Shown in pieces: positions 22,913-42,943 of a stretch of DNA of 64,000 nt (positions within the stretch are counted from its first letter, which is position 1; each line of letters starts with the position of its first letter). Location of the stretch: positions 9,743,501 through 9,807,500 of the forward strand of contig NZ_CP012670.1 in NCBI RefSeq assembly GCF_004135735.1, given 5' to 3'. The notes under the pieces were generated by a model. That model was not told the origin of the DNA and did no database searches. It was given only the letters and a program-made list of their open reading frames with translations. The DNA is from Sorangium cellulosum. Its GTDB lineage: Bacteria; Myxococcota_A; Polyangia; Polyangiales; Polyangiaceae. The translations under genes were made by a program, and so were the position numbers.

Positions 22913-23584
22913 ATGCATATGGATCTCTGGCTTCGGCTGGATTGCAGCGCCGTGCTCGTCGTCGCCCCCCACCCGGACGACGAGGTCATCGGATGCGGCG
23001 GCTTGATAACGAAATGCCACGATCTAGGGGGTAAGGTGGCCATCGCCTATCTGACGTGCTCGAGCGCCGAACGCCGGCGCGAGGCGACCGAAGCGCGACA
23101 CCGGCTCGGGGCGCCCGACGCCTACGAAATGGGCTGGGAGGAAGGACACGTGCGCGTCGACGAGGCCAGTTCTGCGCAGCTCGCCCGGTTGCTGGAAGCG
23201 ATCAATCCGGCGCGGGTGTTCGTGCCCTCGGCGGACGACGTGCATCGGGACCACCGCGCCTCGATCCAGGTGCTCGCGCGTGCCCTGGCAACGGCCTCTC
23301 GCACGCCGGGTGAAATCTTCGAGTACGAGGGCTTTCGACCTCACGCCGAGGCGAACGCCTACCTGGATATCAGCGATGTCTCTTCGAGGAAGTTCAAAGC
23401 GTTGGCCTGCTACGCCACGCAGGAGCGCCTGTACCGCCTCGATGAGCTTGTGCGGCACCTGAACGCGTATCGAGCGCGGACGACGATGCGACGCCACGTG
23501 GCGTTCGCGGAGGCGTTCCTCGCCATGAGCGTGGACTGCTTCCTGGCGCGCGCGCGCTCGCGAGGCGCGCCAAATCCTGCGTGA
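22913..23584 (+). CDS. PIG-L/LmbE-family N-deacetylase
   Basis: A 223-residue zinc amidohydrolase of the PIG-L (LmbE) family, which removes N-acetyl groups from GlcNAc-type sugars. The metal-binding motif is APHPDDEVIGCGG (His20, Asp23), and the third ligand lies in DDVHRDHRA. Mitomycin biosynthesis uses a protein of this family (MitC) to deacetylate the GlcNAc attached to AHBA on its carrier protein, so the same role is a good guess here given the AHBA synthase-like, ligase, ACP and glycosyltransferase genes that follow. It is the first gene of the operon; a second in-frame ATG at 22919 is an alternative start. Confidence 0.82.
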   Translation: MHMDLWLRLDCSAVLVVAPHPDDEVIGCGGLITKCHDLGGKVAIAYLTCSSAERRREATEARHRLGAPDAYEMGWEEGHVRVDEASSAQLARLLEAINPARVFVPSADDVHRDHRASIQVLARALATASRTPGEIFEYEGFRPHAEANAYLDISDVSSRKFKALACYATQERLYRLDELVRHLNAYRARTTMRRHVAFAEAFLAMSVDCFLARARSRGAPNPA

Positions 23585-23615
23585 TCAGAAACGGAACCTG
23601 CCGGGGGACGACGAG

Positions 23616-25145
23616 ATGGGCCTGAACGCTCCGAAGTTGGTCATCTTTGGAATCGATGGCGGCGATTGGGGCCTCGTGGAGAGGATGATTGCGCGCGGGA
23701 GGCTGCCGAACCTCGCTCGATTCATACAAAGAGGCGCGCACGCCGAGATGGAGTGCACGTGGCCGGCCCACACCGCGCCCGGGTGGGCGTCCCTGGTGAC
23801 GGCGCAACCGCCGGGCGAGCACGGCATTTACCAGTTCTTCCATACTCAGGATCCGGAGTACCGCGCCCGCATCGTGCGCTCCGACGACTATCATTGCACG
23901 AGCATGTGGGACTGGCTCGTGGGTGCTGGCATGTCGGTGGGGCTCGTGAACATCCCCATGAGCCACCCGCCCCGCGGCTACCGGGGGTACGAGATATCCT
24001 GGCCCCTGGAGAACACGCTCCGCTTCTCCTCCCCGCCGGGGCTGCTGGCCGAGCTGGCCGCGTGCGGCTGCCAGTTTCAGTCCGACCTCGCATGCATGTA
24101 TCGAGGCGATCTTCAGTACATCCACTCCGCGCTGGCGAACGTGGAGGCCCGGGGACGATCGGTCCGCCATCTGATGAGCAGACGGCCGACCGACGTCGTC
24201 ATGGTGGTGCTCACCGAGATCGACCGCGTATGCCACCACTACTGGCACTTCTCGGATCCTTCGCATCCCTCGCACGTACCCGGCGCACAGGCGGCCTACG
24301 TGACCGCCATCGACGACGTCCACGAAGCGGTGGACAGGGTGCTCGGGGAGATCACGCGCGACCTCCCCGAGCAGACATCCATCGTCATCGTGTCCGACCA
24401 CGGCTCGGGCCCGGGACACGATGCATTCAGCGTGCATCAACTCCTCGAGGAGCACGGGCTGCTCGCCGTCCGCGACGCCTCCGACTCCCCGGCGGCGAGC
24501 TGGTTCACCGACGGCGGGCGCCAGATCGATTTCTCCCGGACTGCCGCGTACATGCCGGTGCCGGGGAGCTACGGGGTGAACCTGAACCTCCGCGGCAGGC
24601 AGAGCCAGGGCGTGGTGCGCCCGGACGAGCGCGAGCGGATGCTCGACCAGATCCGCGATCTCTGCCTCGAGGTCACCTCACCGCGGACGGGGCGCCGGAT
24701 CTTCGCCGACGTCCTCCGCCGGGAGAGCGCTTATGCAGGGCGCGCCTGCGATTTCGCGCCGGATCTGCTGCTCGTACCTGCCGACGAGCGGATCATGGTG
24801 TCCGGCCACCTGTCTGGGCCGCCCTGGAAGCCGAGCTATCAGACGGGACATCATCGCCATCGAGGGATGTGGATCCACGCCTCGGAGCGCCTCCGCCCTG
24901 GGCGCCTGCCGCAGCCCGTCCGGATCGTGGACGTCGCTCCGACCGCCCTGGCGGACATCGGGCTCTCTCTCCCGGACCCGGTGCAGGGGCGGGTTGTCCG
25001 GGAGGCGTTTGCCAGCTCGGCCTGGGCCGCGCGGGCGGCCGGCGCCCCCTGCGCCGAGGAGCGCGCCGGGGGCGCCGCGGACGCAGGGCCCCGCCGTGAG
25101 GAGGAGGTCGTCATCGAGCGGCTGCGCGCCATGGGCTACCTGTGA
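23616..25145 (+). CDS. alkaline-phosphatase-superfamily phosphohydrolase (active-site residues present)
   Basis: A 509-residue member of the type I phosphodiesterase/nucleotide pyrophosphatase branch of the AlkP superfamily. The two-metal site looks intact: Asp14 in FGIDGGDWG, nucleophile Thr53 in AHTAPGWASL, EIDRVCHHYWH, VSDHGSGPGHDAF, and a late GHHRHRGM. PPGEHGIYQF is the usual conserved turn. Such proteins cleave phosphate mono- or diesters. In this cluster a phosphorylated or nucleotide-linked intermediate is a plausible substrate. It lies 31 bp after the deacetylase. A paralogue at 34587 lacks most of these residues. Confidence 0.82.
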   Translation: MGLNAPKLVIFGIDGGDWGLVERMIARGRLPNLARFIQRGAHAEMECTWPAHTAPGWASLVTAQPPGEHGIYQFFHTQDPEYRARIVRSDDYHCTSMWDWLVGAGMSVGLVNIPMSHPPRGYRGYEISWPLENTLRFSSPPGLLAELAACGCQFQSDLACMYRGDLQYIHSALANVEARGRSVRHLMSRRPTDVVMVVLTEIDRVCHHYWHFSDPSHPSHVPGAQAAYVTAIDDVHEAVDRVLGEITRDLPEQTSIVIVSDHGSGPGHDAFSVHQLLEEHGLLAVRDASDSPAASWFTDGGRQIDFSRTAAYMPVPGSYGVNLNLRGRQSQGVVRPDERERMLDQIRDLCLEVTSPRTGRRIFADVLRRESAYAGRACDFAPDLLLVPADERIMVSGHLSGPPWKPSYQTGHHRHRGMWIHASERLRPGRLPQPVRIVDVAPTALADIGLSLPDPVQGRVVREAFASSAWAARAAGAPCAEERAGGAADAGPRREEEVVIERLRAMGYL

Positions 25146-25175
25146 GTCGGCGTCCTACCTGACATGGAGGCGATG

Positions 25176-26303
25176 ATGGGCTTGCTGGCGAACGATTTCG
25201 TCCTGCGTGAGGACAACTGCAATCTATCGTGCGAGTACTGCCTTACGGGCCAGAGCAACTTCAAGGCGCGGCACAGCCTGAAGCTCATCTTCGAGCCGCC
25301 ACAGCGCGACACATACTCCCCCTCCGGCAATCTCGGGATGCGAATGCATGGGGTGGTCGAGGGCATATCGCGCTCCTCGCCGCTGCCGATCATCAAGGTC
25401 ACAGGCGGGGAGATCTTCCTTGTTCGAGGGATCATGCACTTCTTGCGGAAGCTCTCGAAGGAGTACGCCACCGTGGTCATTCAGACCAACGGTGTGCTGG
25501 TGAATGACGAGGTCGCCGCGGAGATCGAGTCGTGGGGCAATGCATGCCTGCAGATTTCTCTCGACGCGGTCTCGTACGAGGGCAACTCCTACCGTTCGAC
25601 CTCGGAGCGCCAGCACAGGATGGTGATCGACAGGATCTTCTCCTCGCTCGAGCGGAGAATACCCACCGAGATCTACCTCGTGCTAACCGACCGTTCGGTG
25701 CCCTGGCTGGCGCACACGCTGGAGTCGCTGCTTCCTTATCATGATCACCTGCAAGTCTGCCCCTTCCCCGTGCGCGGGCCGGAGAAGAGCAAATTCTATT
25801 TCAGGCCGGAGCAGATACCGCTGATGAGGGAGATACTGGACAGGTACGACCGGTACGCGCCGGTGCTCCCGCCGCGGGCGTACTGGCGGAGGCTGGTGCG
25901 CTTCCTGGAGGAGGGCGGCCGCACCTTCCGGTGCCACTTGCCTCGATTCGCCTTCACGTCGTTCGACGACGGCACGGTCACGCCCTGTCCGAACATCTGG
26001 TTCAACACCATCGGCAACGTGCTGACGGAGGACGCCGGCGCGGTGATGGAGCAGATAGGAAAGACGGCGTTCTATCAGCTGCTGCTGGCCGACAAGCCGC
26101 GCGTCGACGCGTGCAAGGGGTGCTTCACCCCGTGGGACACCCTGTCCATGTACATGGACGGCGAGATCACCATCGACGAGCTGTGCTCCAGCCCGATGTA
26201 CTCGGCGCCCGAGTCGCGCGCGGCCATCGAGCGCATTGCCAGAGATTATCGTGAGGGGAGAAGCGAATGCTCAGCATCGTCGTCCCATCCTACCAGCGGG
26301 TAG
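25176..26303 (+). CDS. radical SAM protein with C-terminal cysteine motif
   Basis: A radical SAM enzyme of about 375 residues. The cluster motif is DNCNLSCEYCLTG, followed by the SAM-binding KVTGGEIFL. A C-terminal SPASM-like group of cysteines (FRCHLPRF, VTPCPNIWF, ACKGCFTPWD) suggests an auxiliary iron-sulfur cluster. The start at 25176 is preferred because GGAGG lies 5 bp upstream; in-frame ATGs at 25164 and 25173 are possible. Its 3' end overlaps the glycosyltransferase by 37 bp. It could catalyse a C-C or C-N bond-forming, epimerising or dehydrogenating step; no peptide precursor is apparent, so a small-molecule substrate is more likely. Confidence 0.82.
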   Translation: MGLLANDFVLREDNCNLSCEYCLTGQSNFKARHSLKLIFEPPQRDTYSPSGNLGMRMHGVVEGISRSSPLPIIKVTGGEIFLVRGIMHFLRKLSKEYATVVIQTNGVLVNDEVAAEIESWGNACLQISLDAVSYEGNSYRSTSERQHRMVIDRIFSSLERRIPTEIYLVLTDRSVPWLAHTLESLLPYHDHLQVCPFPVRGPEKSKFYFRPEQIPLMREILDRYDRYAPVLPPRAYWRRLVRFLEEGGRTFRCHLPRFAFTSFDDGTVTPCPNIWFNTIGNVLTEDAGAVMEQIGKTAFYQLLLADKPRVDACKGCFTPWDTLSMYMDGEITIDELCSSPMYSAPESRAAIERIARDYREGRSECSASSSHPTSG

Positions 26304-27145
26304 CCAGGCTGCGGCTCTCTCTCACCACGATCTGCGCCTCGCTGATATCGGAGGTCGACAAGGGGGAGGTCATTGTGGTCGACGACTCGGGCGAGGCGAA
26401 AGCGCGACAGGTCCTCGAAGAGGTGACCGGTCGCTTCCCCGGCGTGAGGGCGCGCCTCGTGGAGCAGGTGAACGGCGGCCGCTCGGCGGCGCGCAACCGA
26501 GGCGCCCGCGAGAGCCGTGGGGATGTCCTCCTGTTCCTGGACGCCGACGTGCTTCTGTTTCGTGGCTCGCTCACCGCGCACCTGGACGCCCACGCGTCAG
26601 GCGTCATGACCAGAGGGTCTATCGTTCACATGCCGCGCGCTGCCATCTTCGAAGATCCAGAGCGCGGCGTGCTCACCGACCGAGCCCGGCGCGTCCTCTC
26701 CGGCGCCGCGCCGACGCCCCCGGTGAGGCTCGAGGCCGACGGCTCGCCATCCGAGCACCTTCTGAGGCTCGGACGCATGACCAGGTTCGAGCGCGATCTC
26801 CACGAGCTCCTCGCGGTCAGCCAAAGGCGCTGGCCGGGGGCCACCGGCGCGCACGTGTCCATCGGTCGCGAGGACTTCATGCGGCTCGGCGGTTACGATG
26901 AGAGGATGGGGCGCCGCTGGGGTGCCGAGGACCTCGAGCTCGGGTATCGCGCCGAGCAGGCGGGGATGACGCTGTGCCACCGCGAGGACGCGGTGGTCCT
27001 TCATATGGATCACGACGTCTGCGGGCGCGAGGGGGATCACGCCCACGCGCTGTCCTACTTCGCGGAGAAGCACCGCGATCCGCGCGTGCTCCGGCTCGAC
27101 GAGTACCTCGCAGGAAAATGCTCATTGCACGAGGTGGTATCATGA
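26267..27145 (+). CDS. family 2 glycosyltransferase
   Basis: A 292-residue GT-A fold glycosyltransferase. The nucleotide-binding start is LSIVVPSYQRVARL with VVDDSGEA, then NGGRSAARNRGA, the metal-binding FLDADVL, and the acceptor-side WGAEDLELGYR motif. It overlaps the radical SAM gene by 37 bp and shares ATGA with the following ligase gene, so it is translationally coupled. In mitomycin biosynthesis a glycosyltransferase (MitB) places GlcNAc on AHBA held by a carrier protein; this gene is positioned to do the same with the neighbouring ligase, ACP and deacetylase, which is inference. The sugar donor is not evident. Confidence 0.85.
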   Translation: MLSIVVPSYQRVARLRLSLTTICASLISEVDKGEVIVVDDSGEAKARQVLEEVTGRFPGVRARLVEQVNGGRSAARNRGARESRGDVLLFLDADVLLFRGSLTAHLDAHASGVMTRGSIVHMPRAAIFEDPERGVLTDRARRVLSGAAPTPPVRLEADGSPSEHLLRLGRMTRFERDLHELLAVSQRRWPGATGAHVSIGREDFMRLGGYDERMGRRWGAEDLELGYRAEQAGMTLCHREDAVVLHMDHDVCGREGDHAHALSYFAEKHRDPRVLRLDEYLAGKCSLHEVVS

Positions 27146-29376
27146 CCCTTCGCGCGCTGTTGACCGCCGCGGCCGAGACCGCCGCCCATCGAGTCTTCCT
27201 CGACGGCCCCGCCGCGCTCACCCGCCGCGAGGCGCTGGCACGTATCGCGGCGCGAGAGGCCGAGCTGCGGCGCGCCGGAGCGGGGCGACCGCTGGTCGTC
27301 CACGGAGAGAACTCGAGTGACCTGCTGCTCTGGGTCCTGGCGGCGCTGACGGCGCGCGTCCCGGTGGTGCTCGTGCCAGCCACCTTCACGGGCGGCGAGC
27401 TGCGAGCCATTGCGCAGCTCGCGTCGGCCTGCGCCGTGGTCTCCGCGTCGGGGCTCGAGTGGCTCACCGCCGCGACGCCGGTGTGGCCGGAGGCGGCGGC
27501 GCTCGCCTTCGCGACCTCTGGCTCCACCGGAGCGCCGCGCCTCGCGCTGCGCAGCGAGAAGAGCTTGTTGGACGAGGGTGAGCGTTACCAGCGGCTGCTC
27601 GCCGCGGGCGCGGACGACGTCTTCATGGCGGCGATGCCCGTGGCGCACGCGTTCGCCTTCGGCGCCGCCGTGATGGGGTCTTTGGTCGCTGGTGGTCGAT
27701 TGATATGCGAGCACTTCACGGCTCCGCGCCAGCTCGCGGCGCGCGTCGCCTCCGGGGTGACGATCCTCCCCATGGTCGCCGCGGTGGCTCGCAGCCTCGC
27801 CTACCTCGACAACGGCGGGCGGGTCGAGTCGCGGCTCCGCGTGGCCATGGTCGGCGCAGGCCCGGTGAACGCGCAGGTGTCGCGCGACTTCGAGGCCAAA
27901 TGGGGAGTCCCGCTCTCCTCGAATTACGGCAGCTCGGAGACGGGGGCAACGCTGGCCCGCCTCTCCGGCGAGGGGACCGGTCGACCCATGCCCGGGGTGG
28001 AGTGCGCCATCGAGGGCGGCCAGCTCTGGGTCAAGCTGGCGTCGCCCCCTCTGGGCCACCTCACCCCTCGAGGCTACGAGCCGGTGCGCCTCGCGCCAGG
28101 GGGATACTACGCGACCGGCGATATCGCGACGCGCGGCGAGGACGGGGTGGTCACCATCGTCGGTCGCCTGGGGGACGAGATCCGCCGGGGCGGCCATACC
28201 ATCGTCCCGTCCGAGATCGCCGCCGTCATCGAGGCATGCCCGGGCGTCGCCGAGGTGGTGGTGCGCGGCGCCTCGGACGCGACCGGCGAGCAAACGGTCG
28301 AGGCGCACGTCGCGCCTCGACCGGGGACGACGCTCGATCGCGCCGAGCTCCTGGCTCACGTAAGGGCGCGTCTAGCGCCGCACAAGCGGCCGACACGATG
28401 GGTGCTCCACGACGCGCTGCCGCGCACCTGGTCGGGCAAGCCCGTGGTGCGCGAGACGACCACCACGCCAGCCTGGATGCGATCGCTCCTCTCGTATCGA
28501 TTGCCCGCGGCCATTTTCGCCGCGGCCGAGCTCGGGATACTGGAGCGGCTGCCCGCCGCAGCCGCCGATCTGGCGGAGGGCTGCGACCCGCGCGCTGTCG
28601 CGATGCTCCTGGAGGTGCTGGAGGTGGCCGGCGTCGTGAGGCGGCGTGCGGATCGTGTGGAGTCGCTCCTTCCGTCCGGCGCCTTCGCGCACAGGATGAT
28701 CGAGCTCGAGCGGCACCTGGCCGGCGGCTGGTTGTCACCCGACGAGATCGCGCGCGCGGCGCGGGGCCAGCGGCGCTTCGAGCACACCGACACGTCCGAC
28801 ACGGCCCGGCTGTACCGCGAGGTGATCTGCGGTCCGGCGCAGGTACAGTGCGCCGCGCAGCTCGGGCGAACGCTGCCGCCGTGGGCGCGCGTGGCCGAGA
28901 TCGGCCGCGGTATCGGCGCGCTGTCGCGGATGCGGTCGGGGCAGCGGTGCCCGCTGGGGCCAGGGCCGGCCATCCTGTGCGACGCCGACGATCTCCCGGC
29001 CCAGACCTGGGATGAGATTTCCCTGCCGCCGCGGTCCTTCGACCTGGTGCTGGTCTTCAACGGCATCCACTGGCTGGAGCCCGCGAAGGCACAGTCCGTG
29101 TTACGCCGGCTCCTCGACGCTCTGACCGAGACGGGCGCGCTGGTGATCGCCGACATCTTCCTTCCCGAGGGGGACGAGGGCGACGACCGCACGCCGCTGC
29201 TGCTCGATTGGCTGACCCACGGGGGAACAAGCTTCCTCCGCCGCTCGTCGCTGGAACAGGCGCTCACCGAGGCGGGCGGTGGTTTTATCCAACGAGAGGC
29301 CATCGTCCATCCATTCGAGTCCATTCGATGCCTGCGAGCTCCCCAGCGCGAAACGACCAACAGCACACTGGCTTGA
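27142..29376 (+). CDS. adenylate-forming ligase fused to SAM-dependent methyltransferase
   Basis: A 744-residue fusion. Residues 1 to about 440 are a compact class I adenylating enzyme: P-loop FATSGSTGAPRLAL, SSNYGSSETGATL, YYATGDIATRGEDG and the catalytic Lys in TWSGKPVVRE. Residues about 450-735 look like an O-methyltransferase: a winged-helix dimerisation part (PAAIFAAAELGILERLP), a SAM loop VAEIGRGIGALSRM in place of the usual DxGxGxG, FDLVLVFNGIHWLE, and VIADIFLPEGD. No carrier domain lies between, and a free ACP follows 11 bp later. The ligase probably loads an aromatic acid such as AHBA onto that ACP (compare MitE and MmcB of mitomycin). The odd SAM loop leaves methyltransferase activity uncertain. 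The start shares ATGA with the glycosyltransferase stop. Confidence 0.85.
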   Translation: MTLRALLTAAAETAAHRVFLDGPAALTRREALARIAAREAELRRAGAGRPLVVHGENSSDLLLWVLAALTARVPVVLVPATFTGGELRAIAQLASACAVVSASGLEWLTAATPVWPEAAALAFATSGSTGAPRLALRSEKSLLDEGERYQRLLAAGADDVFMAAMPVAHAFAFGAAVMGSLVAGGRLICEHFTAPRQLAARVASGVTILPMVAAVARSLAYLDNGGRVESRLRVAMVGAGPVNAQVSRDFEAKWGVPLSSNYGSSETGATLARLSGEGTGRPMPGVECAIEGGQLWVKLASPPLGHLTPRGYEPVRLAPGGYYATGDIATRGEDGVVTIVGRLGDEIRRGGHTIVPSEIAAVIEACPGVAEVVVRGASDATGEQTVEAHVAPRPGTTLDRAELLAHVRARLAPHKRPTRWVLHDALPRTWSGKPVVRETTTTPAWMRSLLSYRLPAAIFAAAELGILERLPAAAADLAEGCDPRAVAMLLEVLEVAGVVRRRADRVESLLPSGAFAHRMIELERHLAGGWLSPDEIARAARGQRRFEHTDTSDTARLYREVICGPAQVQCAAQLGRTLPPWARVAEIGRGIGALSRMRSGQRCPLGPGPAILCDADDLPAQTWDEISLPPRSFDLVLVFNGIHWLEPAKAQSVLRRLLDALTETGALVIADIFLPEGDEGDDRTPLLLDWLTHGGTSFLRRSSLEQALTEAGGGFIQREAIVHPFESIRCLRAPQRETTNSTLA

Positions 29377-29387
29377 GAGGGATCATC

Positions 29388-29654
29388 ATGAACGATGTTA
29401 GATCACGTCTGCGCCGCGTCATCGTGAGGGGGCTGCGCCTGGACCGCAGCCCCGAGTCCATCCCGGAGACCAACCTGACGCAGGAGCTGGGAATCGACTC
29501 CATCAACTCGCTCGAGCTCCTTGTCTGGGTGGAGAACGAGTTCGACATCCAGATCGACGACGCCGACCTGTCGACCGCGCTCGTGGACTCGCTCGACACG
29601 CTGGCGAGCTACGTGAGCGCGCGGCTCGCCGCGAAAGGCACAGCGGCGGCATGA
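29388..29654 (+). CDS. stand-alone acyl carrier protein of the cluster
   Basis: An 88-residue carrier protein with the phosphopantetheine Ser38 in LGIDSINSLELLVWVE and the acidic recognition helix ENEFDIQIDD. Start at 29388 is chosen by alignment; longer frames upstream overlap the ligase. The gene shares ATGA with the ketosynthase gene and follows the ligase by 11 bp, so ligase, ACP and ketosynthase form a natural loading and extension unit. It would carry the aromatic starter and perhaps the growing chain. Confidence 0.88.
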   Translation: MNDVRSRLRRVIVRGLRLDRSPESIPETNLTQELGIDSINSLELLVWVENEFDIQIDDADLSTALVDSLDTLASYVSARLAAKGTAAA

Positions 29655-33318: not shown

Positions 33319-33363
33319 GGATCGAAGCGGCTCATACGCACCGAGCCAGCGCAGGAGGATATC

Positions 33364-34581: not shown

Positions 34582-34586
34582 GCGCC

Positions 34587-35897
34587 ATGAAGAGGGCCAT
34601 TGTCATCATCACCGAAGGGGCCTCGCGACCGCTGCTCGAACAGTGGGTGGCAGCGGGACTGCTGCCCGGCTTCGCCTCCCTGCTCCAGAGCGGGCGTCAC
34701 GGCCTGATGCGTTCAGACATCGTGCCTTACGAGCCGCCTGGCCTGATATCTGCCTTCACCGGGGCCAGCCCGGGCGAGCACGGCGTGTACTCGTACTGGG
34801 CCGCCCAGAACGCCGATATCCAGCCGAGGGTGCTGCAGCCGGGCGACATCGCGCGTCCGCTGCTGTGGAATCGGCCCGAGTTCGGGCGGCGCAGGGTGGC
34901 GCTGGTGAACCTGTTCGGCACCTGCCCCGTCGAGCCGCTGAACGGATCTTCGATCGCTTACCCGATGCAGCAGACGGTGCACGCGTGTCATCCCAGAGGG
35001 CTCCTGCTCGAGCTCTCGCAGGCCGGCATCCGCATCCATCACGATGTGTCGATCTGGTATGCCGGTCAGGCGCGGGAGACCTTCCTTTCGCGGGTGCTCG
35101 AGGCCGACGTGCAGCGGACTCAGGCCGCCTTTTATCTCTGGAACAAGGAGCGGCCCGATCTCCTCGTGCTCAACCTGACCGGGATCGATCGCGTAGCGCA
35201 CTTCTACTGGCACGAGCTTGAGCCCGGCTCGCCCATCGCCCCGGAGCAGGGCGCCATCTTCCGCGCATTCCAGACGGCGGACCTGACGATCCGGCGCGCG
35301 ACCGAGCTTCTGGACGACGAGACGAGCTTGCTCGTCTTCTCCGAGATCGGCTCCGGGCCGCTCCGCGCCTTCTGCTCCGTCAACGCTGCGCTGGAGAAGG
35401 CGGGCCTCCTCCGGACCGAGGGACAGGAGATCGACTGGGGGAGCACCGCGGCGTTCGAGGCGGTGCAGGGGACCCACGGCGTCAACATCAACCTGCGCGG
35501 CCGCAACCGCGCCGGTATCATCGAGCCCGAGGACTACGATCGAACGCGCCGACAGACGCGCGACGCCCTGATCGCGGCCACGAACCCCTACACCGGGCTG
35601 CCGCTCTTCAAGGCGGTCCGCCTGCGCGAAGAGGTGTATGCCGGGGAGTGCCTGCCCCGCGCGCCGGACCTCGTGGTCGAGCCGCTGGACGAGCGTTACC
35701 TGCCGCTCGGCGACCCGTTCTGGGCGCGCGCGGTGAACCGGACGTTGCAGAGCGGGTGGCACCGCCGCGATTCGTTCTGGGCCGCTGTCGGCACGGCGGT
35801 GGGCGCGGGCGAGGCGGAGGAAGGCCGGCCCGCGGCGGTCTATCCGACGCTCTGCCGCATGCTCGGCATCGACGTCGACGCACGGGGGCTGTGGTGA
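34587..35897 (+). CDS. AlkP-superfamily paralogue lacking most catalytic residues
   Basis: A 436-residue paralogue of the hydrolase at 23616: GASPGEHGVYSYW, TGIDRVAHFYWHE, GTHGVNINLRGRNRAG and the overall order match. But the key positions differ: the first metal Asp (GIDGGD) reads IITEGAS, the nucleophile Thr segment (HTAPGW) reads YEPPGL, and the DHGSGPGHD metal loop reads SEIGSGPLRAF. Only one Asp and one His of the two-metal site survive in the IDRVAH motif. It is probably a pseudoenzyme, perhaps a partner or regulator of the active paralogue. ATG 34587 has a GAGGTGA sequence upstream; a GTG at 34578 overlapping the previous stop is an alternative start. Confidence 0.8.
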   Translation: MKRAIVIITEGASRPLLEQWVAAGLLPGFASLLQSGRHGLMRSDIVPYEPPGLISAFTGASPGEHGVYSYWAAQNADIQPRVLQPGDIARPLLWNRPEFGRRRVALVNLFGTCPVEPLNGSSIAYPMQQTVHACHPRGLLLELSQAGIRIHHDVSIWYAGQARETFLSRVLEADVQRTQAAFYLWNKERPDLLVLNLTGIDRVAHFYWHELEPGSPIAPEQGAIFRAFQTADLTIRRATELLDDETSLLVFSEIGSGPLRAFCSVNAALEKAGLLRTEGQEIDWGSTAAFEAVQGTHGVNINLRGRNRAGIIEPEDYDRTRRQTRDALIAATNPYTGLPLFKAVRLREEVYAGECLPRAPDLVVEPLDERYLPLGDPFWARAVNRTLQSGWHRRDSFWAAVGTAVGAGEAEEGRPAAVYPTLCRMLGIDVDARGLW

Positions 35898-36550
35898 GCT
35901 GCGTCCGCGTCCTGCCGTTTGCCATGACCCAGGTGGACGACCGCCATGCATGCGTCGGGTCGCTCACCGAGGACGGGCGCTGGGTTCGCCCCGAACCCGT
36001 GACGCTCGACATGGTCGACCGGGCGTTCGTGTACCGCACCTGGACCGAGCTCGCGCTCGTCCCTTCGGCGCACCCCGACGCGCGCCCCGAGGATCGTGCG
36101 ATGTTGCAGGCGCCGCGGCCGCTCGGCCGGATCGACGCAGCCGCGTGGAAGGAGCTGGCCGAGAGGCACCTCGACCCGGACGTGCTCACGGCGCTCGGCG
36201 GCGAGAGGAGCCTTGGCCTCGTGAAAGCATCCATCGAGCGCCTGTATCTGAAGCGTTCCACCGGTGGGAGGCGCTTCGTGCGCATGGTCTTCACCGACCG
36301 TGCCTCGCGCACCTACGACTGGATCGTCCCCGAGCTGCGCCTTCGCCGGCTCATCGAGCGTCACGCGCAGGGCGATCGGATCGACCCGCGCGCGGAAGAG
36401 CACGTCCGCCGCGCGCTGAACGACGCAGAGATCTACCTGTGCCTCGGCCTCACCAAGCCCAATCACAGGCTCCCGGGGCAGTTCCGCGGGTGCCATCCGC
36501 TCGTCGTGGGGCTCCACGCCCTCCCCGAGCCCGAGGAGCTCACGTCATGA
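35894..36550 (+). CDS. uncharacterised protein, possible dual OB-type domain
   Basis: A 218-residue protein beginning with GTG that overlaps the preceding stop. The N-terminal FAMTQVDDRHACVGSLTEDG and WVRPEP pattern and the C-terminal CLGLTKPNHRLPGQFRGCHPL resemble the small dual OB-fold proteins sometimes found in defence or nucleic-acid contexts, but the match is weak. No enzyme motif is clear. It is tightly coupled (GTGA upstream, ATGA downstream) between the AlkP paralogue and the RifL-like oxidoreductase, so it is probably part of the pathway or of its control. Confidence 0.6.
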   Translation: MSCVRVLPFAMTQVDDRHACVGSLTEDGRWVRPEPVTLDMVDRAFVYRTWTELALVPSAHPDARPEDRAMLQAPRPLGRIDAAAWKELAERHLDPDVLTALGGERSLGLVKASIERLYLKRSTGGRRFVRMVFTDRASRTYDWIVPELRLRRLIERHAQGDRIDPRAEEHVRRALNDAEIYLCLGLTKPNHRLPGQFRGCHPLVVGLHALPEPEELTS

Positions 36551-37575
36551 GGCTGGGAATCATCGGCGCCGGCTGGGTCGCGATGAACGCTTATATCCCC
36601 GCAGGCGCGAAGGTCACGCACGTGCTCGACATCGACCCCTCGCGCGCCACGGAGCTTGCCGCCCGCTGCGGCGCCGTTGTGGTCTGGGACCTCGACGCGC
36701 TGGTTGCGCAGGTGGACGCCCTCATCGTGTGCACCCCGCCCCACGAGCACCCGGACGCGCTGCTTCTGGCGATGCGCGCGCGCAAGCCCGCGCTGTGCGA
36801 GAAGCCGGTCATCCGAGCACCCGCGGAGGCAGAGCTCGATCCTCGGCTCGTCATGGGGAGCGCCACCACCCGCCTGCGTGACGACGTCCAGCAGCTCCTG
36901 CGCTGGGTCGAGGAAGAGAGGCTCGGCGGCCTTCGCCGGGTCGCCTTGCGCTGGATACGGGGCGCCGGAGTTCCGGCCCCGGGTTCGTGGAGGACCGACC
37001 GCGCCTGCGCGCCGCTAGGTGTGCTCGAGGACCTGGGGCCGCACCTGCTCGACGTGGCCCAGGCCATCGTCCCCGACGACGACCCGCGTGTGGTGGAGAG
37101 CGTGCTCGCCTGTCGTCACGGGGCGTGCCCCAGGAGCGCGGCCTGGTTCGGCGGCGAGGGCAACAGCAGCTACGCTGTGCCCGATTACTGCGCAGCGCGC
37201 CTGGCCACGGCGCCGGGCGTCGAGGTGCAGATCGAGGTGGCGTGGGCCGACGCCGAGCCGCGCGACGTCGCCCAGATCGTGATCGAGGGGGAGCGCGGGC
37301 GCGCAGCGCTCGACGGGCTGTTCGGCTTCTCGACGGAGCGACGCGTGGCCGAGCAGACCTGCCGACTCGCGTCTGGCGGCGCCGTCGAGCTCCTCCACCT
37401 CGATCCCGGCCCCGGGGCTCAACAACGGGCGTTCTCGCGCTCGATCCAGCGCTTCGAGCGGTTCTGTCTCGGGCTGGCCCCTGCCTGCGCCGACGCCCAC
37501 GAGATCCGCCGCGTGGCGCGCTGGATGGAGCTCATCGAGGAGCACCACCGGCTGATGCGGGAGATGCCGCAATGA
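36547..37575 (+). CDS. Gfo/Idh/MocA-family oxidoreductase (RifL-like)
   Basis: A 342-residue NAD(P)-dependent oxidoreductase. The Rossmann start is MRLGIIGAGWVA, followed by VDALIVCTPPHEHPD, the family signature ALCEKPV and the active-site helix LEDLGPHLLDVA. Proteins of this family pair with AHBA synthase (RifL with RifK) to oxidise and then aminate C3 of UDP-glucose on the way to UDP-kanosamine. Its place between the RifK-like and ROK-kinase genes supports that role, which remains inference. It overlaps both neighbours by ATGA. Confidence 0.85.
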   Translation: MRLGIIGAGWVAMNAYIPAGAKVTHVLDIDPSRATELAARCGAVVVWDLDALVAQVDALIVCTPPHEHPDALLLAMRARKPALCEKPVIRAPAEAELDPRLVMGSATTRLRDDVQQLLRWVEEERLGGLRRVALRWIRGAGVPAPGSWRTDRACAPLGVLEDLGPHLLDVAQAIVPDDDPRVVESVLACRHGACPRSAAWFGGEGNSSYAVPDYCAARLATAPGVEVQIEVAWADAEPRDVAQIVIEGERGRAALDGLFGFSTERRVAEQTCRLASGGAVELLHLDPGPGAQQRAFSRSIQRFERFCLGLAPACADAHEIRRVARWMELIEEHHRLMREMPQ

Positions 37576-38399
37576 TGATCGGCATCGACATAGGCGCCAC
37601 GTCCTGCCGCGCGGTCGTCGACGGGCGTCCGCTCGCGGAAGCGTCCACCCCGACCCCTCCGCGCGCGCTGGGCGACGTGCTCCGGTCCTTCCGCCCCCGA
37701 GGCGCGGCCATCGAGGGCGTGGGGATCGGGTTTGCTGCCAGCGTGGGCGCCGACGGCCGAGTAGCGGCGTGGTCGAACCGCCCCGCGTACGTCGGGCTCG
37801 ACGTCGACACCCTGGCGCGATCCATCTTCGATGCGCCGGTGGTCTGGCTCGACGACTGCGCCGCCGCCGCGGTGGCCGAGCACGGTGACGAGGCGACGAC
37901 GAGCACCCTTTACGTCGGCGTGGGCACCGGCATCGGCGCGGGCTTCGTGGATCGTGGCCGCCTCCTCGAAGGGGCCACGCGCTCCGCGATGGCGCTGGGG
38001 CACGTGCGGGTCCCGTCGGCGGGTGACGCGCCGTGCACCTGCGGAGCGCGGGGCTGCGTGCAAGCGGTGGCGAGCGGCCGCGCGCTCGCCAGCAAGGGGG
38101 TCGAGCTCCGGCTCCCGCCCGGAAAGATCGCGGCGAGCGCCGCGCAAGGCGATCCGCAGGCGCGCTCGCTCCTCATGTCGATCGTCGAGCCGCTCGCGGA
38201 AGCCGTGGCGCTCGCCTGCAAGCTCCTCGATCCGACACGCGTCGTGCTCGGCGGAGGCCTGAGCGAGGCGGGCCCGTGGCTCACGGCGGCGCTCGGCGCG
38301 CGCGTGCCGGTGCCCGTTGTCGGGGCTCGCCATGGACGGCTCAGCGCGGCGCTGGGCGCGCTCGCACACGCCCGAGCTCACGTGCGGAGAAACGCATGA
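37572..38399 (+). CDS. ROK-family sugar kinase (RifN/kanosamine-kinase-like)
   Basis: A 275-residue ROK protein. The phosphate-binding start is MIGIDIGATSCRAVVDG, the catalytic Asp lies in VWLDDCAAAAVAEHGD, the glycine loop is LYVGVGTGIGAGF, and the zinc motif is CTCGARGCVQ. Length and motifs fit kanosamine 6-kinases of AHBA pathways (RifN), which phosphorylate kanosamine for entry into aminoshikimate synthesis; glucokinase-like activity is the alternative. The Asn that usually precedes the catalytic Asp is Asp here. ATGA overlaps link it to the oxidoreductase before and the methyltransferase after. Confidence 0.85.
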   Translation: MMIGIDIGATSCRAVVDGRPLAEASTPTPPRALGDVLRSFRPRGAAIEGVGIGFAASVGADGRVAAWSNRPAYVGLDVDTLARSIFDAPVVWLDDCAAAAVAEHGDEATTSTLYVGVGTGIGAGFVDRGRLLEGATRSAMALGHVRVPSAGDAPCTCGARGCVQAVASGRALASKGVELRLPPGKIAASAAQGDPQARSLLMSIVEPLAEAVALACKLLDPTRVVLGGGLSEAGPWLTAALGARVPVPVVGARHGRLSAALGALAHARAHVRRNA

Positions 38400-39193
38400 C
38401 GCACACCAAGACAAGCACCATGAAGGGCGTCTGGGCCGACGCCGAAGCGTACGAGCCGTACATCGGTCGGTGGAGCCGCCCGGTGGCGCGGCAGCTCGTG
38501 GAGTGGGTGGGGGTCCACGGCGAGTGGCTCGACGTCGGCTGCGGCACGGGCGCGGTGAGCGAGGCCATCGTCGAGTGGTCCCCCGGATCGAGGGTAGTCG
38601 CCCTGGATCGATCCGAGGGATACATCGCCTATGCGACGCGCCTGTTGGCTGGCAGGCCGGTGCGCTTCGTCCACGGCGACGCGCTGGAGATCGCGTTCGA
38701 TGACGACCGATTCGACGCGGTGGCCTCTGGCCTCGTGCTGAATTTCCTCTCCGACGCGCCGCGCGCCGTCGCGGGCATGGCGCGCGTGGCTCGACGGGGC
38801 GGCGCCTTGGCGGCCTACGTCTGGGACTACGCCGGGGGCATGGGGTTCTTGCGTGCCTTCTGGGACGTCGCCCACGAGATCGACCCGACGGCGGTGAGCC
38901 TGGACGAAGCACGCAGGTCCCCGCTCTGCGCGCCGCAGCCGCTGGCGGAGCTCTTCCGCAGCGCAGGCCTCCACGAGGTGAGCACGAGGGCCATCGAGGT
39001 GGAGACGCACTTCGCCAGCTTCGATGATCTCTGGAGGCCGTTCCTCGGCGGACAGGGGACGGTCGGCAGCTTCGTGATGAGGCTGCCCGAGGCGCAGCGC
39101 AACGAGATCCGCGATCGCCTCTGGCGCAAGGTGGGCAAGGGACGCATCGAGCTGCGCGCCCGCGCCTGGGCGGTGAAGGGCCTCAAGCCATGA
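38396..39193 (+). CDS. class I SAM-dependent methyltransferase
   Basis: A 265-residue methyltransferase. The SAM loop is WLDVGCGTGAVSEAI, then VVALDRSEGYIAYA, FVHGDALEIAFDDDRFDAV and VASGLVLNFLSD. The VWADAEAYEPYIGRWSR N-terminus is common in small UbiE-like enzymes. It could methylate an oxygen or nitrogen of the product. It is one of three methyltransferase modules in the operon, with the C-terminal half of the ligase and the 39807 gene. Coupled by ATGA to both neighbours. Confidence 0.85.
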   Translation: MTHTKTSTMKGVWADAEAYEPYIGRWSRPVARQLVEWVGVHGEWLDVGCGTGAVSEAIVEWSPGSRVVALDRSEGYIAYATRLLAGRPVRFVHGDALEIAFDDDRFDAVASGLVLNFLSDAPRAVAGMARVARRGGALAAYVWDYAGGMGFLRAFWDVAHEIDPTAVSLDEARRSPLCAPQPLAELFRSAGLHEVSTRAIEVETHFASFDDLWRPFLGGQGTVGSFVMRLPEAQRNEIRDRLWRKVGKGRIELRARAWAVKGLKP

Positions 39194-39810
39194 TGTCCAA
39201 GGTCGCGGTGTCCATCGCGCCGAAGAGTCCCTCGGAGTGCCGCGCCGGCATGGCGGCCGTCGCGGGGCGCGCGGGGTTCGTGGAGGTGCGGCTCGACGCG
39301 ATGGAGCGAATCGATCCCGACGCGCTCCGGCACGCGCCGCTCCCGGTGATCGCCACCTGCCGCCCCATGCGCGAGGGGGGGCGCTTCGGCGGACCGGAGA
39401 GGGAAAGGCTCGACATCCTGAGGTGCGCCTCGCAATGGGCCGCGTACGTCGACATCGAGTGGGACACCGCGGATCGGTTCGAGAGCGCCAGGGCTCGCAC
39501 GCTGGTGTCCCGCCACTGGTTCGATCACATGCCTGACCTGCACCAGGAATACCGGCGCCTGCGCCGGCGCGGCGACGCCGTGAAGCTCGCCGCGCCGGCA
39601 CGCACGGCGGAGGACGCCGCCCACGTGCTCGACGTCCTGGCCGCGGCGACCTCGCCGCTGATCGCGATCGGCATGGGCGACGCGGGCAGGCACGCGCGCC
39701 TCGCTGCGCTGGCGCTCCCGCATTGCCTGGCCACCTACGTCGCCCTGAAACGAGGGCAGGAGACGGCGCCTGGACAGCCCTCGCTCGACGATGTGCTGGA
39801 GCTATCATGA
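39190..39810 (+). CDS. type I 3-dehydroquinate dehydratase-like (amino-DHQ dehydratase)
   Basis: A 206-residue protein, slightly shorter than usual type I dehydroquinases (about 225-250). The Schiff-base and catalytic residues seem present: EVRLDAME, IATCRPMREGGRF, the His in VSRHWFDHMPD, the Lys in DAVKLAAPARTAED, then IAIGMGDAGRHAR and a late APGQPSL. Type I enzymes dehydrate 3-dehydroquinate via a lysine Schiff base. In an AHBA context it would act on 5-amino-5-deoxy-3-dehydroquinate; rifamycin uses a type II enzyme (RifJ), so a type I substitute would be a variation. ATGA overlaps on both sides. Confidence 0.78.
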   Translation: MMSKVAVSIAPKSPSECRAGMAAVAGRAGFVEVRLDAMERIDPDALRHAPLPVIATCRPMREGGRFGGPERERLDILRCASQWAAYVDIEWDTADRFESARARTLVSRHWFDHMPDLHQEYRRLRRRGDAVKLAAPARTAEDAAHVLDVLAAATSPLIAIGMGDAGRHARLAALALPHCLATYVALKRGQETAPGQPSLDDVLELS

Positions 39811-40745
39811 GCACGCGCTCCCTCTGGCACTGGGCCAACGCATACAAGATGAGCGCGGCCATCTTCGCCCTCGAGGAGGTGGGCGCGCTCGCGGCCATGG
39901 CCGCGGCTCCGCGCTCGATCGAAGAGCTCAGTTGGCTCGACGCGGACGCGCTGGCCCCGCTGCTCACCATGCTGCTCCACGCCGGGCTGCTCTCCTGCGA
40001 GGACGGGAGGTACTCGCTCGTGGGCGGCTCGCTGCTTCCGCTGCTCGCGCACGAGAGGCGCGTGCGATCGCGCTTCTCGCAGGAGGTCATCGTGGCCCGT
40101 CTGCGCGGCCAGGGCGGCTCCGATCCGATGGACGCGCCGGGGGCCGAGGCGCGCTGGCCGGAGTACCACGCCGCCATGAGCGTGAGCGCGCGATCGATCG
40201 CGCCGCATGTCGTCCGCGTCACCCGGCTGAGGCGCGGCGAGCACGTGATCGATCTGGGCGGCGCCGACGGCGCCCTCTTCGCAGCGCTCAAGCACCTCGT
40301 CCCCGGGATCCGCGGCACCGTCGTCGACCGCCCCTCGGCCGCGCCGCACTGGCGCGCGGTGGAGGACGCGCGCTTCGTCGGGCTCGATCTGCGCGCGCTC
40401 GACGGCGACCTCCTGGCCGACGCCGACGTGGTGCTCCTCTCCAACGTCCTGCACCTCTTCAACGCTGCCGACCGCGGCGTCATGATGAAGAAGATCCTCG
40501 ATCACGTGCGCCCGGGCGCGCGCGCCGTGGTGTACGACGTCTTCGTGTCACGCGGCGTCGCGGACGCGGGCCTCTTCATGGTCCTCGACTGGATGCTGTG
40601 CGGCCACCGATTCGACCTGACGGCCGAGCAGATGGCGTCAGAGCTCGTCTCGCTCGGCTGGTCGAATCCGGTCACTCACATCGTACCGACCCTGCCGGGC
40701 GCGTTCGTCTCGGCCCTCAAACCCGCGAGCGGAGCCACACCGTGA
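39807..40745 (+). CDS. O-methyltransferase with winged-helix dimerisation domain
   Basis: A 312-residue enzyme of the plant/antibiotic O-methyltransferase family. The N-terminal helix-turn-helix-like dimerisation region (MSAAIFALEEVGALAAMAAA) is followed by the SAM loop HVIDLGGADGALFAAL, VVLLSNVLHLFNAADR and AVVYDVFVSRG. The His that often acts as base in these enzymes could be His455-type in VLHLFN. It resembles the C-terminal half of the ligase fusion at 27142, suggesting common origin. Phenol methylation of the aromatic unit is a plausible job. Coupled by ATGA and GTGA to neighbours. Confidence 0.82.
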   Translation: MSTRSLWHWANAYKMSAAIFALEEVGALAAMAAAPRSIEELSWLDADALAPLLTMLLHAGLLSCEDGRYSLVGGSLLPLLAHERRVRSRFSQEVIVARLRGQGGSDPMDAPGAEARWPEYHAAMSVSARSIAPHVVRVTRLRRGEHVIDLGGADGALFAALKHLVPGIRGTVVDRPSAAPHWRAVEDARFVGLDLRALDGDLLADADVVLLSNVLHLFNAADRGVMMKKILDHVRPGARAVVYDVFVSRGVADAGLFMVLDWMLCGHRFDLTAEQMASELVSLGWSNPVTHIVPTLPGAFVSALKPASGATP

Positions 40746-42943
40746 GACACCTGCGCGACTTCCTCTCCGAGCTCTCGACCGGAGGACCTGTATCCATGCT
40801 CGGCGGACACTATCGCTGGCCTGGGAGCCCCAGCTCGTTCGCGGTGAACTCGATAAAGCACGTCGTGGCGCTGGCGGCTGAGCTTAGCGGCCGCGCCGTG
40901 ACCTCGACCGTGTTCCTGGACGACATCGGCGCCGGGGCCGCCTGCGCGGCCGGACGCTGCGACGTGGGGCTCCATCACACCATCCCGCAGGCGACGATCG
41001 ACGGCCTGGAGCGGTGGGCGGCCGAGGAGCTGCCCGCGCTGGAGACGACCCTGGTCGAGTCCGAGCGTGGCTGGATCGCCCCCGCCAGGCGGCTGCGCGA
41101 CATCCTGCGCAACTGCAGCGCCTTCGTCCCTGGCCACCCCGCCATTGAGGTGCTTCGCGACGGCGTGTCCTCCGATGCCGGGCCCGTCCGCTGGCTCAGG
41201 GCGCTCGAGATGGCGCTCTACATCGGGGCGAGGCCGCTGTTCCGACCGTTGCTCCTGGGGCACGAGTCGCGCCTCGCGCTGCCGCCGGTGCTCCTCGAAC
41301 GAACCATCACCAACGCCGCTTCGCGGAACCTGCACAAGGCGCGGAAGGCCAGGCGCCCGACCGGCCTCAGGGTCGATGACCCGGGTGATGGGTCGGTCCT
41401 CTACTGGGTACCCGGGCTCGATCGGGAGCGCATCGAGCTCCGCCGCGAGGAGAGCCGGGATGGCGTGAGCCGGGCAGCCAACAAGTGCGCCGCGATCCTC
41501 TCGCAGCTCTTCTTCCACATGCTCAAGGGAGCGAAGACTAAGCGCGCGTCGGTCTTCTACCTCGTCCCCTCGTACGACCGCGCGCGCTTGCGCGACGGCA
41601 TGGTCGCGTTCTTCCATATCTATCACGATCTGGCCGCGTGGTTCGGGCTCAAGGAGGCCACCTTGGTGTCCGGCTTCTACACCGACCCGGATCGCTCCGA
41701 GATCATGTGTGACGTCGTGTCACGCCGGCAGGACGACGCGCTCCCCCATCTCGGCGTGCACAGGCTGCGCGTCGGCGGCGCGCCGGCGCGATCCGCGGCC
41801 CCGCGGCGGATCTACGCCGACAACAACGCGACCACCGCGACCGATCCGTCGGTCCTCGAAGCGATGATGCCTTACCTGGGCGGCTCGTTCGGCAACCCCA
41901 GCTCGGCGCACTGGTCCGGCTGGGAGGCGGAGCACGCGGTGGCCGAGGCGCGGCAACGCGTGGCGGAGTCGATCGGCGCCGACCCGGAGGAGGTCTTCTT
42001 CACCTCGGGAGCGACCGAGTCGAACAACTGGTTGCTCCGCGGCTTCCCGCACGGCGTCCTCGTCACCTCGCCGATCGAGCACAAATCGGTGCTCGTGACC
42101 GCCCTGGAGATGCAGCGCGGCGGCCGCGAGGTGCGCATGGCGCCCATCACGCCCCAGGGGGAAGTGGACCTCGCCGCGCTGAAGGAGCTCATCACCCCCG
42201 GCTCGCTCGTCTCGCTGATGGCGGCGAACAACGAGATCCACACGCTGCTCGACCTGGACGCGGTGGGCGAGCTCTGCCAGCAGCGGGGCGCCCTCTTCCA
42301 CACCGACGCGGCGCAGGCGCTGGGCAGGATGCCGCTCGACGTGCGGCGGGCGCGCATCCACGCCATGAGCTTGTCGGCGCACAAGATCCATGGGCCCAAG
42401 GGCATCGGCGCGCTCTACGTCTCACGCGACCTCCACCACCGGCTCGGCGCGCTCCTGAGCGGCGGCGGTCAGGAGAGGAACCTGCGCGCTGGCACCTTGC
42501 CGACCGCGCTCATCGTGGGCTTCGGCGCCGCCTGCAGCCTCGCGCGCCAGTGCTACGCGCTCGAGGTGCAGCGCTTGCAGGCGATATCCCAGCGCTTCCT
42601 GGTGGAGCTCTCCGCGCGCGAGGTCCGCTACGACATCGTTGGACCTCCGGACCTGCGGCGTCGCCGTCCGGGTTCTCTGTGCCTGTTCTTTCCCGATATC
42701 GACACCGTCCGGCTGTCCGAGGTGCTGTCCGAGATCGCGGTCAGCCAGACCTCGGCCTGCAATGGCCAGGGAGTGGGCAGTCACGTCCTCGCGCATCTCG
42801 GGTTCACCGTGGCCGAAGCACAGCGGATGTTGCGGATCGCCTTCGGGCGCTTCAACACGGAGGAGGACGCGCTCGTCATCGCCGGACGCATCGCCGCCGT
42901 GCTGCACGGCGATCCGTGCGAGGAGCGGCGTGCGGCCTCCTGA
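40742..42943 (+). CDS. fusion of unknown 350-residue domain with cysteine desulfurase
   Basis: A 733-residue protein that starts with GTG overlapping the previous stop. Residues about 356-725 form a NifS/IscS-type cysteine desulfurase: IYADNNATTATDP, FFTSGATESNNW, FHTDAAQALG, PLP Lys in SLSAHKIHGPKG, and the persulfide-forming Cys in SQTSACNGQG. Both key residues are present, so it should release sulfur from cysteine. The first 350 residues (LGGHYRWPGSPSSFAVNSIK, CAAILSQLFFHMLKGAK, AWFGLKEATLVSGFYTDPD) match nothing I know and may be the sulfur acceptor-handling or substrate domain. It implies sulfur incorporation into the product. It is the last gene of the coupled operon. Confidence 0.85.
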   Translation: MRHLRDFLSELSTGGPVSMLGGHYRWPGSPSSFAVNSIKHVVALAAELSGRAVTSTVFLDDIGAGAACAAGRCDVGLHHTIPQATIDGLERWAAEELPALETTLVESERGWIAPARRLRDILRNCSAFVPGHPAIEVLRDGVSSDAGPVRWLRALEMALYIGARPLFRPLLLGHESRLALPPVLLERTITNAASRNLHKARKARRPTGLRVDDPGDGSVLYWVPGLDRERIELRREESRDGVSRAANKCAAILSQLFFHMLKGAKTKRASVFYLVPSYDRARLRDGMVAFFHIYHDLAAWFGLKEATLVSGFYTDPDRSEIMCDVVSRRQDDALPHLGVHRLRVGGAPARSAAPRRIYADNNATTATDPSVLEAMMPYLGGSFGNPSSAHWSGWEAEHAVAEARQRVAESIGADPEEVFFTSGATESNNWLLRGFPHGVLVTSPIEHKSVLVTALEMQRGGREVRMAPITPQGEVDLAALKELITPGSLVSLMAANNEIHTLLDLDAVGELCQQRGALFHTDAAQALGRMPLDVRRARIHAMSLSAHKIHGPKGIGALYVSRDLHHRLGALLSGGGQERNLRAGTLPTALIVGFGAACSLARQCYALEVQRLQAISQRFLVELSAREVRYDIVGPPDLRRRRPGSLCLFFPDIDTVRLSEVLSEIAVSQTSACNGQGVGSHVLAHLGFTVAEAQRMLRIAFGRFNTEEDALVIAGRIAAVLHGDPCEERRAAS

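Follow-up and report, generated by a model that had tools for sequence, protein, structure and literature searches.

The window analysed here, a 64,000-nucleotide (64-kb) stretch of the Sorangium cellulosum genome (contig NZ_CP012670.1, positions 9,743,501 to 9,807,500), harbours an operon of 18 plus-strand genes (22913-42943), as delineated by translation and family scans. The locus is predicted to encode a mitomycin-type 3-amino-5-hydroxybenzoic acid (AHBA)-aminosugar line rather than an ansamycin cluster or a simple type II polyketide synthase (PKS), because eleven proteins of the window have relatives in all five related actinobacterial clusters and six of these are found in none of 41 control loci. 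A core of the mitomycin type is very probably present, comprising most of the core genes with which the assembly of mitomycin-type anticancer compounds begins. That the locus specifies a divergent mitosane-family pathway, in which the aryl thioester bound to an acyl carrier protein (ACP) would also be extended by a fused ketosynthase/chain-length-factor-like protein (KS-CLF), is a reading to which we give slightly less than an even chance. The added KS-CLF appears to set the cluster apart as a variant of the mitomycin-type lines, and the product may be a mitomycin-like molecule of new shape. The original prediction, made from the sequence alone, had described a coupled operon with RifM-, RifK-, RifL- and RifN-like genes and a dehydroquinate dehydratase gene, all of which are present. 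The PIG-L, glycosyltransferase, adenylating ligase, free ACP, KS-CLF and short-chain dehydrogenase/reductase (SDR) genes that it named were likewise recovered by family scans. Its description did not include PDE1, the MitD-type radical S-adenosylmethionine (SAM) enzyme, PDE2, a 218-amino acid protein, two methyltransferases (38396 and 39807) and a desulfurase fusion, nor the genes further downstream, up to 48131.

A contig scan with a two-sequence AHBA alignment yielded 43 loci. Two of these, in Saccharopolyspora rosea (SAC; L033) and Actinosynnema sp. ALI-1.44 (ACT; L039), are relatives, encoding counterparts of PDE1, PDE2, the radical SAM enzyme, GT2, the ligase, the ACP, the SDR and OX; the other 41 served as control. 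Three further actinobacterial clusters (G268, G1113 and G899) were added through radical SAM alignment searches. The proteins matching all five clusters are two AlkP-superfamily proteins, PDE1 (23616-25145, PF01663, phosphodiesterase/pyrophosphatase-like; 48-51 % identity) and PDE2 (34578-35897, PF01663; 50-54 %), the MitD-type radical SAM enzyme (25164-26303, PF04055; 48-54 %), the MitB-type glycosyltransferase GT2 (26267-27145; 28-32 %), a MitE-type adenylating ligase with a fused O-methyltransferase-like region (LIG-OMT; 27142-29376; 30-34 %), a free MmcB-type ACP with a GIDSIN motif (29388-29654; 47-60 %), a FabG-like SDR (31906-32625; 31-37 %), a RifM-like HAD phosphatase (32638-33318; 32-38 %), an AHBA synthase of the RifK/MitA type (33364-34581; 44-48 %), a RifL-like GFO/IDH oxidoreductase (OX; 36547-37575, PF01408; 28-34 %) and, downstream of the operon, a plus-strand B12-binding radical SAM enzyme (46320-48131; 60-62 % over about 600 residues). 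Of the 40 control loci compared for motifs (all but L046), 32 have at least two of three AHBA motifs and eight have fewer. None of the 41, with flanks of at most 10 kb that more distant genes would escape, matches PDE1, PDE2, the MitD-type enzyme, the ACP, the B12-type enzyme or GT2. The HAD phosphatase (30 of 41), OX (32 of 41) and the ROK kinase (24 of 41) do have matches there.

The link of these clusters to mitomycin rests on two Streptomyces lavendulae PDB proteins used as queries. MmcR (3GWZ) finds proteins of 82.7 % identity in G1113, 70 % in SAC (over 152 residues), 56 % in ACT, 55 % in G268 and 28 % in G899. The mitomycin-binding protein (1KMZ) has counterparts in G1113 (84.9 %), G268 (75 %) and SAC (70 %) and no match in the ACT and G899 regions. 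Since G899 shows so distant an MmcR and no mitomycin-binding protein, it is tied to the mitomycin group through the shared core only. The order AHBA synthase, glycosyltransferase, PIG-L, radical SAM, ligase, SDR, GFO/IDH occurs in ACT, SAC and G1113, and in G268 minus the AHBA synthase, in keeping with the mitA-G order.

The aminotransferase encoded at 33364-34581 appears to be an AHBA synthase. It shares 49 % identity over the aligned part with the AHBA synthase RifK (1B9H), scores 352 bits against 1B9H/1B9I compared to 205 bits for the next PDB family, the 2-deoxy-scyllo-inosose aminotransferases, and all three tested AHBA-synthase motifs are intact. In a 47-row tree, from which L046 was excluded as too short, the protein has a long branch and is basal to the actinobacterial AHBA clade of 37 rows, adjoining homologues from metagenome-assembled genomes that lack the AHBA motifs, and the two outgroup rows split apart. 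A phylogeny with RifK/MitA and sugar aminotransferases had been proposed as a check: the tree alone is not decisive, and it is on the scores, the motifs and the gene context that a sugar aminotransferase was rejected in favour of an AHBA synthase.

The AHBA synthase is accompanied by the K-, L-, M- and N-type supply genes expected of a mitomycin-type cluster. For the HAD phosphatase the best NCBIfam model is TIGR01454, 'AHBA synthesis associated protein' (113.6 bits, below the cut-off of 246.65). The RifN-like ROK kinase (37572-38399, PF00480), a putative kanosamine kinase, has matches in three of the five relatives. The dehydroquinase (39190-39810, PF01487) is of type I; the five relatives all have type II RifJ relatives. 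Outside the window the genome encodes one class II 3-deoxy-D-arabino-heptulosonate-7-phosphate (DAHP) synthase and has two dehydroquinate (DHQ) synthase places, which a RifG query matches at 44 % and 37 %. At one of them, next to chorismate synthase, the DHQ synthase is fused to a shikimate kinase. The other (L003, G000:C1 near 1156890) stands alone, beside a Poly_export (Wza-type) polysaccharide-export gene; it may supply the aminoDHQ synthase that is missing, or have another function. The export protein, as a marker of an outer membrane, suggests a host other than an actinobacterium. RifG relatives (65-71 %) occur in the G268, G1113, G954 and G1187 regions, and no RifG match was found in the 60-kb regions of SAC, ACT and G899. 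A 466-amino acid protein of the sister clusters was considered as a RifH candidate and rejected, as it has no Pfam match and no match to the DAHP synthase locus of the genome.

In mitomycin biosynthesis, according to one study, AHBA is activated by MitE and tethered to MmcB, and MitB adds N-acetylglucosamine (GlcNAc) from uridine diphosphate (UDP)-GlcNAc; MitF is placed among the ACP-dependent reductases, is modelled on FabG and binds MmcB (PMC8621148). MitC deacetylates, followed by MitF and MitD, according to a second study, which describes the pathway as still poorly elucidated (PMC9570651). Proteins of the MitE, MmcB, MitB, MitC, MitF and MitD types are each encoded in the window, those of the MitC and MitF types by family only. 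With a MitB profile built from three relatives, GT2 ranked first in the 11.26-Mb genome (110.4 bits, the next 41.4), so that it can be regarded as a putative MitB-type ACP-dependent glycosyltransferase. The ligase (AMP-binding) scores 278 bits to a MitE profile and gives tblastn pieces of 641-715 columns in all five clusters; behind the ligase part lies a weak O-methyltransferase dimerisation match, below cut-off. Its presumed partner is the free ACP, assigned to the MmcB type by alignment, and the radical SAM enzyme is of the MitD type by its matches in every relative. The mitomycin-like loading and glycosylation of AHBA that had been predicted gains support from the gene set in common and, where MitB is concerned, from the whole-genome test. 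The PIG-L protein fits by family but is no MitC orthologue by sequence. The predicted absence of a ketoreductase (KR) from mitomycin clusters looks doubtful, in view of the FabG-modelled, ACP-dependent MitF in the first study (PMC8621148) and of the SDR relatives in all five clusters.

Among the five relatives, the ACP gene is found next to that of PDE1, PDE2 or PDE3, G268 having two ACPs; in the window it is placed between the ligase and KS-CLF genes. Of AlkP-superfamily 'phosphodiesterases' the window has two, SAC, ACT, G268 and G1113 four each and G899 three (L054-L062, L073-L075). We know of no role assigned to the AlkP-superfamily proteins of these clusters.

The KS-CLF (29651-31909) is what the relatives lack. 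Its ketosynthase (KS) half, matched by a FabF model (321 bits, below the cut-off of 493.75), keeps the catalytic Cys and both His residues, which the second half has lost. Catalytic residues kept in one half and lost in the other are the usual picture for a KS with its chain-length factor. In line with the prediction that mitomycin clusters have no fused KS-CLF, none of the five relatives matches it, nor the type I dehydroquinase or the desulfurase fusion. A KS query of the window gave a single match (29651-30826); with no further ketosynthase in the window there is no modular type I PKS here, as an ansamycin cluster would have, and the 1996-amino acid open reading frame at 3454-9444 is a kinase hybrid. 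KS, CLF and ACP of a type II PKS are present, with an ACP of the MmcB type and no cyclase or dehydratase found in the operon. Fused relatives occur in 23 records, with 33-34 % identity in the ten that were listed. Likewise single-chain, at about 33 % identity over 87-95 % of the query, are those of the Streptomyces plasmid loci NZ_CP106799 and NZ_CP134610, where FabD, an ACP, a 3-oxoacyl-ACP reductase and two dehydratases are encoded along with additional KSs; in the operon of the window no dehydratase or further KS was found. Searches of plasmids for MitD, the 218-amino acid protein and the N-domain of the desulfurase fusion gave no match. The operon is tightly packed: eleven of its 17 gene junctions are 4-bp overlaps, one is a 37-bp overlap and the remaining five leave 11-45 bp between genes. 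Overlaps of 4 bp join the ACP gene to the KS-CLF gene and the latter to the SDR gene.

The reactions and substrates proposed here, and above all the extension, are read from sequence. An aminoshikimate route would be fed by the RifL- and RifK-type enzymes together with the RifM-like phosphatase and the RifN-like kinase. Its aminoDAHP and aminoDHQ steps would depend on enzymes encoded at other genomic sites, and AHBA would be completed by the type I dehydroquinase and the AHBA synthase. The MitE-type ligase would place AHBA onto the MmcB-type ACP, GT2 would attach an N-acetylaminosugar and the PIG-L protein would remove its acetyl group. Construction of the ring core may fall to the radical SAM enzymes of the MitD and B12 types, together with the SDR and both AlkP-superfamily proteins. 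What would be new is that the KS-CLF condenses the aryl thioester on the ACP with a malonyl unit; this is proposed because the ACP gene stands between the ligase and KS-CLF genes, overlapping the latter, and because the KS is intact. The SDR may reduce the extended unit, and methyltransferases, perhaps with the desulfurase fusion, may tailor the product. The iterative extension that had been predicted stays conjectural, no dehydratase, cyclase or acyltransferase having been found among the 18 proteins of the operon. It is conceivable, at a slightly lower probability than the reading as a divergent mitosane-family pathway with extension, that the locus is a mitomycin/type II PKS hybrid in which one MmcB-type ACP serves aminosugar attachment to AHBA, radical C-C bonding and KS-CLF extension; the product would be a mitosane-like core bearing a ketide side chain where the AHBA carboxyl otherwise leaves a C1 unit.

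Several results weigh against a divergent mitosane-family pathway. The window was queried with 33 proteins (31 from G268 and two from the PDB; cut-off 1e-3), and 14 found no match: RifG, MitR, an FAD monooxygenase, a carbamoyltransferase, the 466-amino acid protein, a cytochrome P450, an aldehyde dehydrogenase (ALDH), two luciferase-like proteins, a PhyH protein, an MtrA-like protein, MitC, a transglutaminase-like protein and RifJ. The luciferase-like, PhyH, P450, ALDH and 466-amino acid proteins occur in four of the five relatives. The MmcS-type carbamoyltransferase occurs in two only (G268 and G1113), so its lack does not distinguish the window. What does is the lack of orthologous matches to four proteins common to all five, namely the MtrA-like and transglutaminase-like proteins, RifJ and PDE3; the PDE3 query finds PDE1 only, at 26 %. 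That these four define the family would be our reading of five clusters rather than an established criterion. Their absence reduces the weight of the mitomycin-type assignment and, together with the absence of the carbamoyltransferase, means that the cluster content does not point to mitomycin itself as the product. GT2 and LIG-OMT share only 28-34 % identity with their relatives, and LIG-OMT, the KS-CLF and KR also match control loci (16, 15 and 8 of 41, respectively) and therefore alone say little. The MitC and MitF types are represented by family only. The PIG-L/LmbE-type de-N-acetylase (22913-23584; PF02585, 68 bits) scores 14.2 bits to the MitC profile, with no tblastn match at 1e-3, and is nearer to BshB1 (TIGR04001, 75.6 bits, below cut-off), so that a MitC orthologue is unsupported and a MitC-like role is suggested by family membership. 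The SDR (223 bits to a 3-oxoacyl-ACP reductase model, below cut-off) is third in the genome to a MitF profile from three relatives (134.9 bits, the first 182.7); it may thus be MitF-like or a polyketide KR, and its identity as MitF is not proven.

Compared, via G1113, G268 and the two PDB proteins, to the mitomycin C cluster of S. lavendulae, the window shares relatives of the AHBA synthase, MitB, MitD, MitE, the MmcB-type ACP, the SDR, the B12-type radical SAM enzyme and two AlkP-superfamily proteins. It differs by lacking matches to the carbamoyltransferase, MitR, MtrA-like, luciferase-like, PhyH, transglutaminase-like and RifJ proteins, by a weak mitomycin-binding protein match and a PIG-L of another subfamily, and by the added KS-CLF, desulfurase fusion and type I dehydroquinase. 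With the rifamycin-type ansamycin AHBA operon it has the RifK-, RifL-, RifM- and RifN-type genes in common; in contrast to that operon, it has no further ketosynthase and does have relatives of MitB, MitD, MitE and MmcB. The G899 cluster, from a genome of the order of G268, shares the eleven core proteins, a ROK kinase and the gene pair of PDE2 and the 218-amino acid protein. It differs in having no KS-CLF match and in having PDE3, MtrA-like, PAPS (3'-phosphoadenosine 5'-phosphosulfate)-reductase-family, GTPase (CysD/CysN-like) and nucleotide-sugar-type genes.

Other explanations concern mainly the role of the KS-CLF. It may make a separate short acyl chain that is joined to a mitomycin-type core. 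The partner genes of the fused relatives in the two plasmid loci, and a 4HBT thioesterase gene near the operon, would fit such a chain, but we consider it unlikely: among the 18 proteins there is no second ACP, dehydratase or acyltransferase, and the KS-CLF gene overlaps that of the MmcB-type ACP. Somewhat less probable still is a KS-CLF that does not elongate, being a transacylase or a relic within an ordinary mitosane-type pathway. The KS half does weakly match AmcF, an acyltransferase subunit of cispentacin biosynthesis (201 bits, cut-off 325), and the ACP finds its best model in AmcB, also from cispentacin biosynthesis (43 bits, cut-off 80). However, the catalytic Cys and both His residues are intact, the overlapping genes oppose decay, and the KS-CLF has a GC content at third codon positions (GC3) of 0.90, in line with adjoining genes.

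The precursor can be questioned as well. The aminotransferase could, with the RifL-, RifM- and RifN-type enzymes, make UDP-kanosamine or kanosamine instead of AHBA, the ligase then using another aryl acid. Two findings would suit kanosamine: the window has no RifG match, and the tree gives the AHBA synthase a basal position. Yet the motifs of an AHBA synthase are intact, a dehydroquinase is encoded in the same operon, and SAC, ACT and G899 are likewise without a RifG match, which makes this the least probable of the three. The mitomycin-type core, with extension by the KS-CLF as its tentative addition, remains our preferred reading.

The remaining genes of the operon encode putative tailoring enzymes and proteins with no assigned family. 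The 218-amino acid protein (35894-36550) has no Pfam match, and its one relative among the five clusters (42.9 %) directly follows PDE2 in G899. A SAM methyltransferase (38396-39193, PF08241) and an O-methyltransferase (39807-40745, PF00891 on a longer frame) are encoded on either side of the dehydroquinase; the latter is weakly MmcR-like (28 % to 3GWZ over 169 residues). The last gene (40742-42943) codes for an N-domain without Pfam or significant PDB match fused to a NifS/IscS-like cysteine desulfurase (PF00266 on a longer frame; IscS-type model 310 bits, below cut-off). AlphaFold predictions made without alignments gave no confident model, with mean pLDDT values of 35 for the 218-amino acid protein and 40 for the desulfurase N-domain. 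CysD/CysN-kind genes (PAPS-reductase family and GTPase) are part of the G899 operon and also occur in the regions of G268 and ACT; G268 has in addition an APS (adenosine 5'-phosphosulfate) kinase gene, to which G1113 and ACT have relatives. The CysD/CysN- and APS kinase-type queries gave no match in SAC. The window has the desulfurase fusion instead of such sulfur genes.

Downstream of the operon, on the other strand, an asparaginase gene and the 4HBT hot-dog thioesterase gene (43911-44321, minus strand; PF03061, 53.5 bits), whose membership is uncertain, separate it from a plus-strand group (44412-48131). This group comprises genes for a VOC/glyoxalase-fold protein (44412-44795, PF00903), a major facilitator superfamily (MFS) exporter (44817-46283, PF07690) and the B12-type radical SAM enzyme. 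The VOC protein, a candidate resistance protein, is weakly like the mitomycin-binding protein (31-35 % over 63-120 residues) but is not the best such match of the genome, where another place scores as well; its gene is overlapped by a long reading frame and directly precedes the exporter gene. Tandem glyoxalase/bleomycin-resistance-type genes further downstream (50647-51051 and 51100-51528) have no match in the five related clusters. Directly upstream, at the left edge of the cluster, lies an rve-domain transposase gene (21039-22283, minus strand). Together with the GC3 of 0.88 for 21 cluster genes against 0.94 for ten flanking genes, this is consistent with acquisition of the cluster from elsewhere.

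In scans for wider occurrence, in which the top few candidates per genome were scored, the source genome was the only one with the AHBA synthase among 144 genomes of its order (E<=1e-80), and the only one with the KS-CLF (E<=1e-75) or a MitD profile match (E<=1e-60) among 377 genomes of its phylum. At the same threshold the MitD profile matched 2 of 394 genomes in the class to which G145 belongs, G145 itself among them, and 5 of 391 in the order to which G268 belongs; the latter matches include G268 and also G954 and G1187, both distant. Trees of MitD and of the B12-type enzyme (8 rows each) do not resolve the position of the window. The G899 region (L076-L078; G899:C1:30001-90000, reverse strand) has the core without carbamoyltransferase, mitomycin-binding protein or close MmcR, adjoining nucleotide-sugar-type genes and with its CysD/CysN-like genes inside the operon. 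It looks like another relative. G954 and G1187 (L079-L082), not counted among the five, harbour AHBA clusters with MitB-, MitE- and carbamoyltransferase-like genes, a distant MitD-like protein (about 32 %) and a B12-type radical SAM-like protein (28 %), and show no PDE1, PDE2 or ACP match; they represent another AHBA-aminosugar branch which, at a guess, may be FR900482-like.

In the literature searched, of which coverage was partial, no report of a mitomycin-type cluster outside the actinobacteria was found. The locus offers a divergent comparison by which core genes can be told from late ones. Two AlkP-superfamily proteins and radical SAM enzymes of the MitD and B12 types recur in all six clusters and are candidate builders of the ring system. 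Furthermore, the KS-CLF allows a direct test of ACP-tethered AHBA as a starter for a type II PKS.

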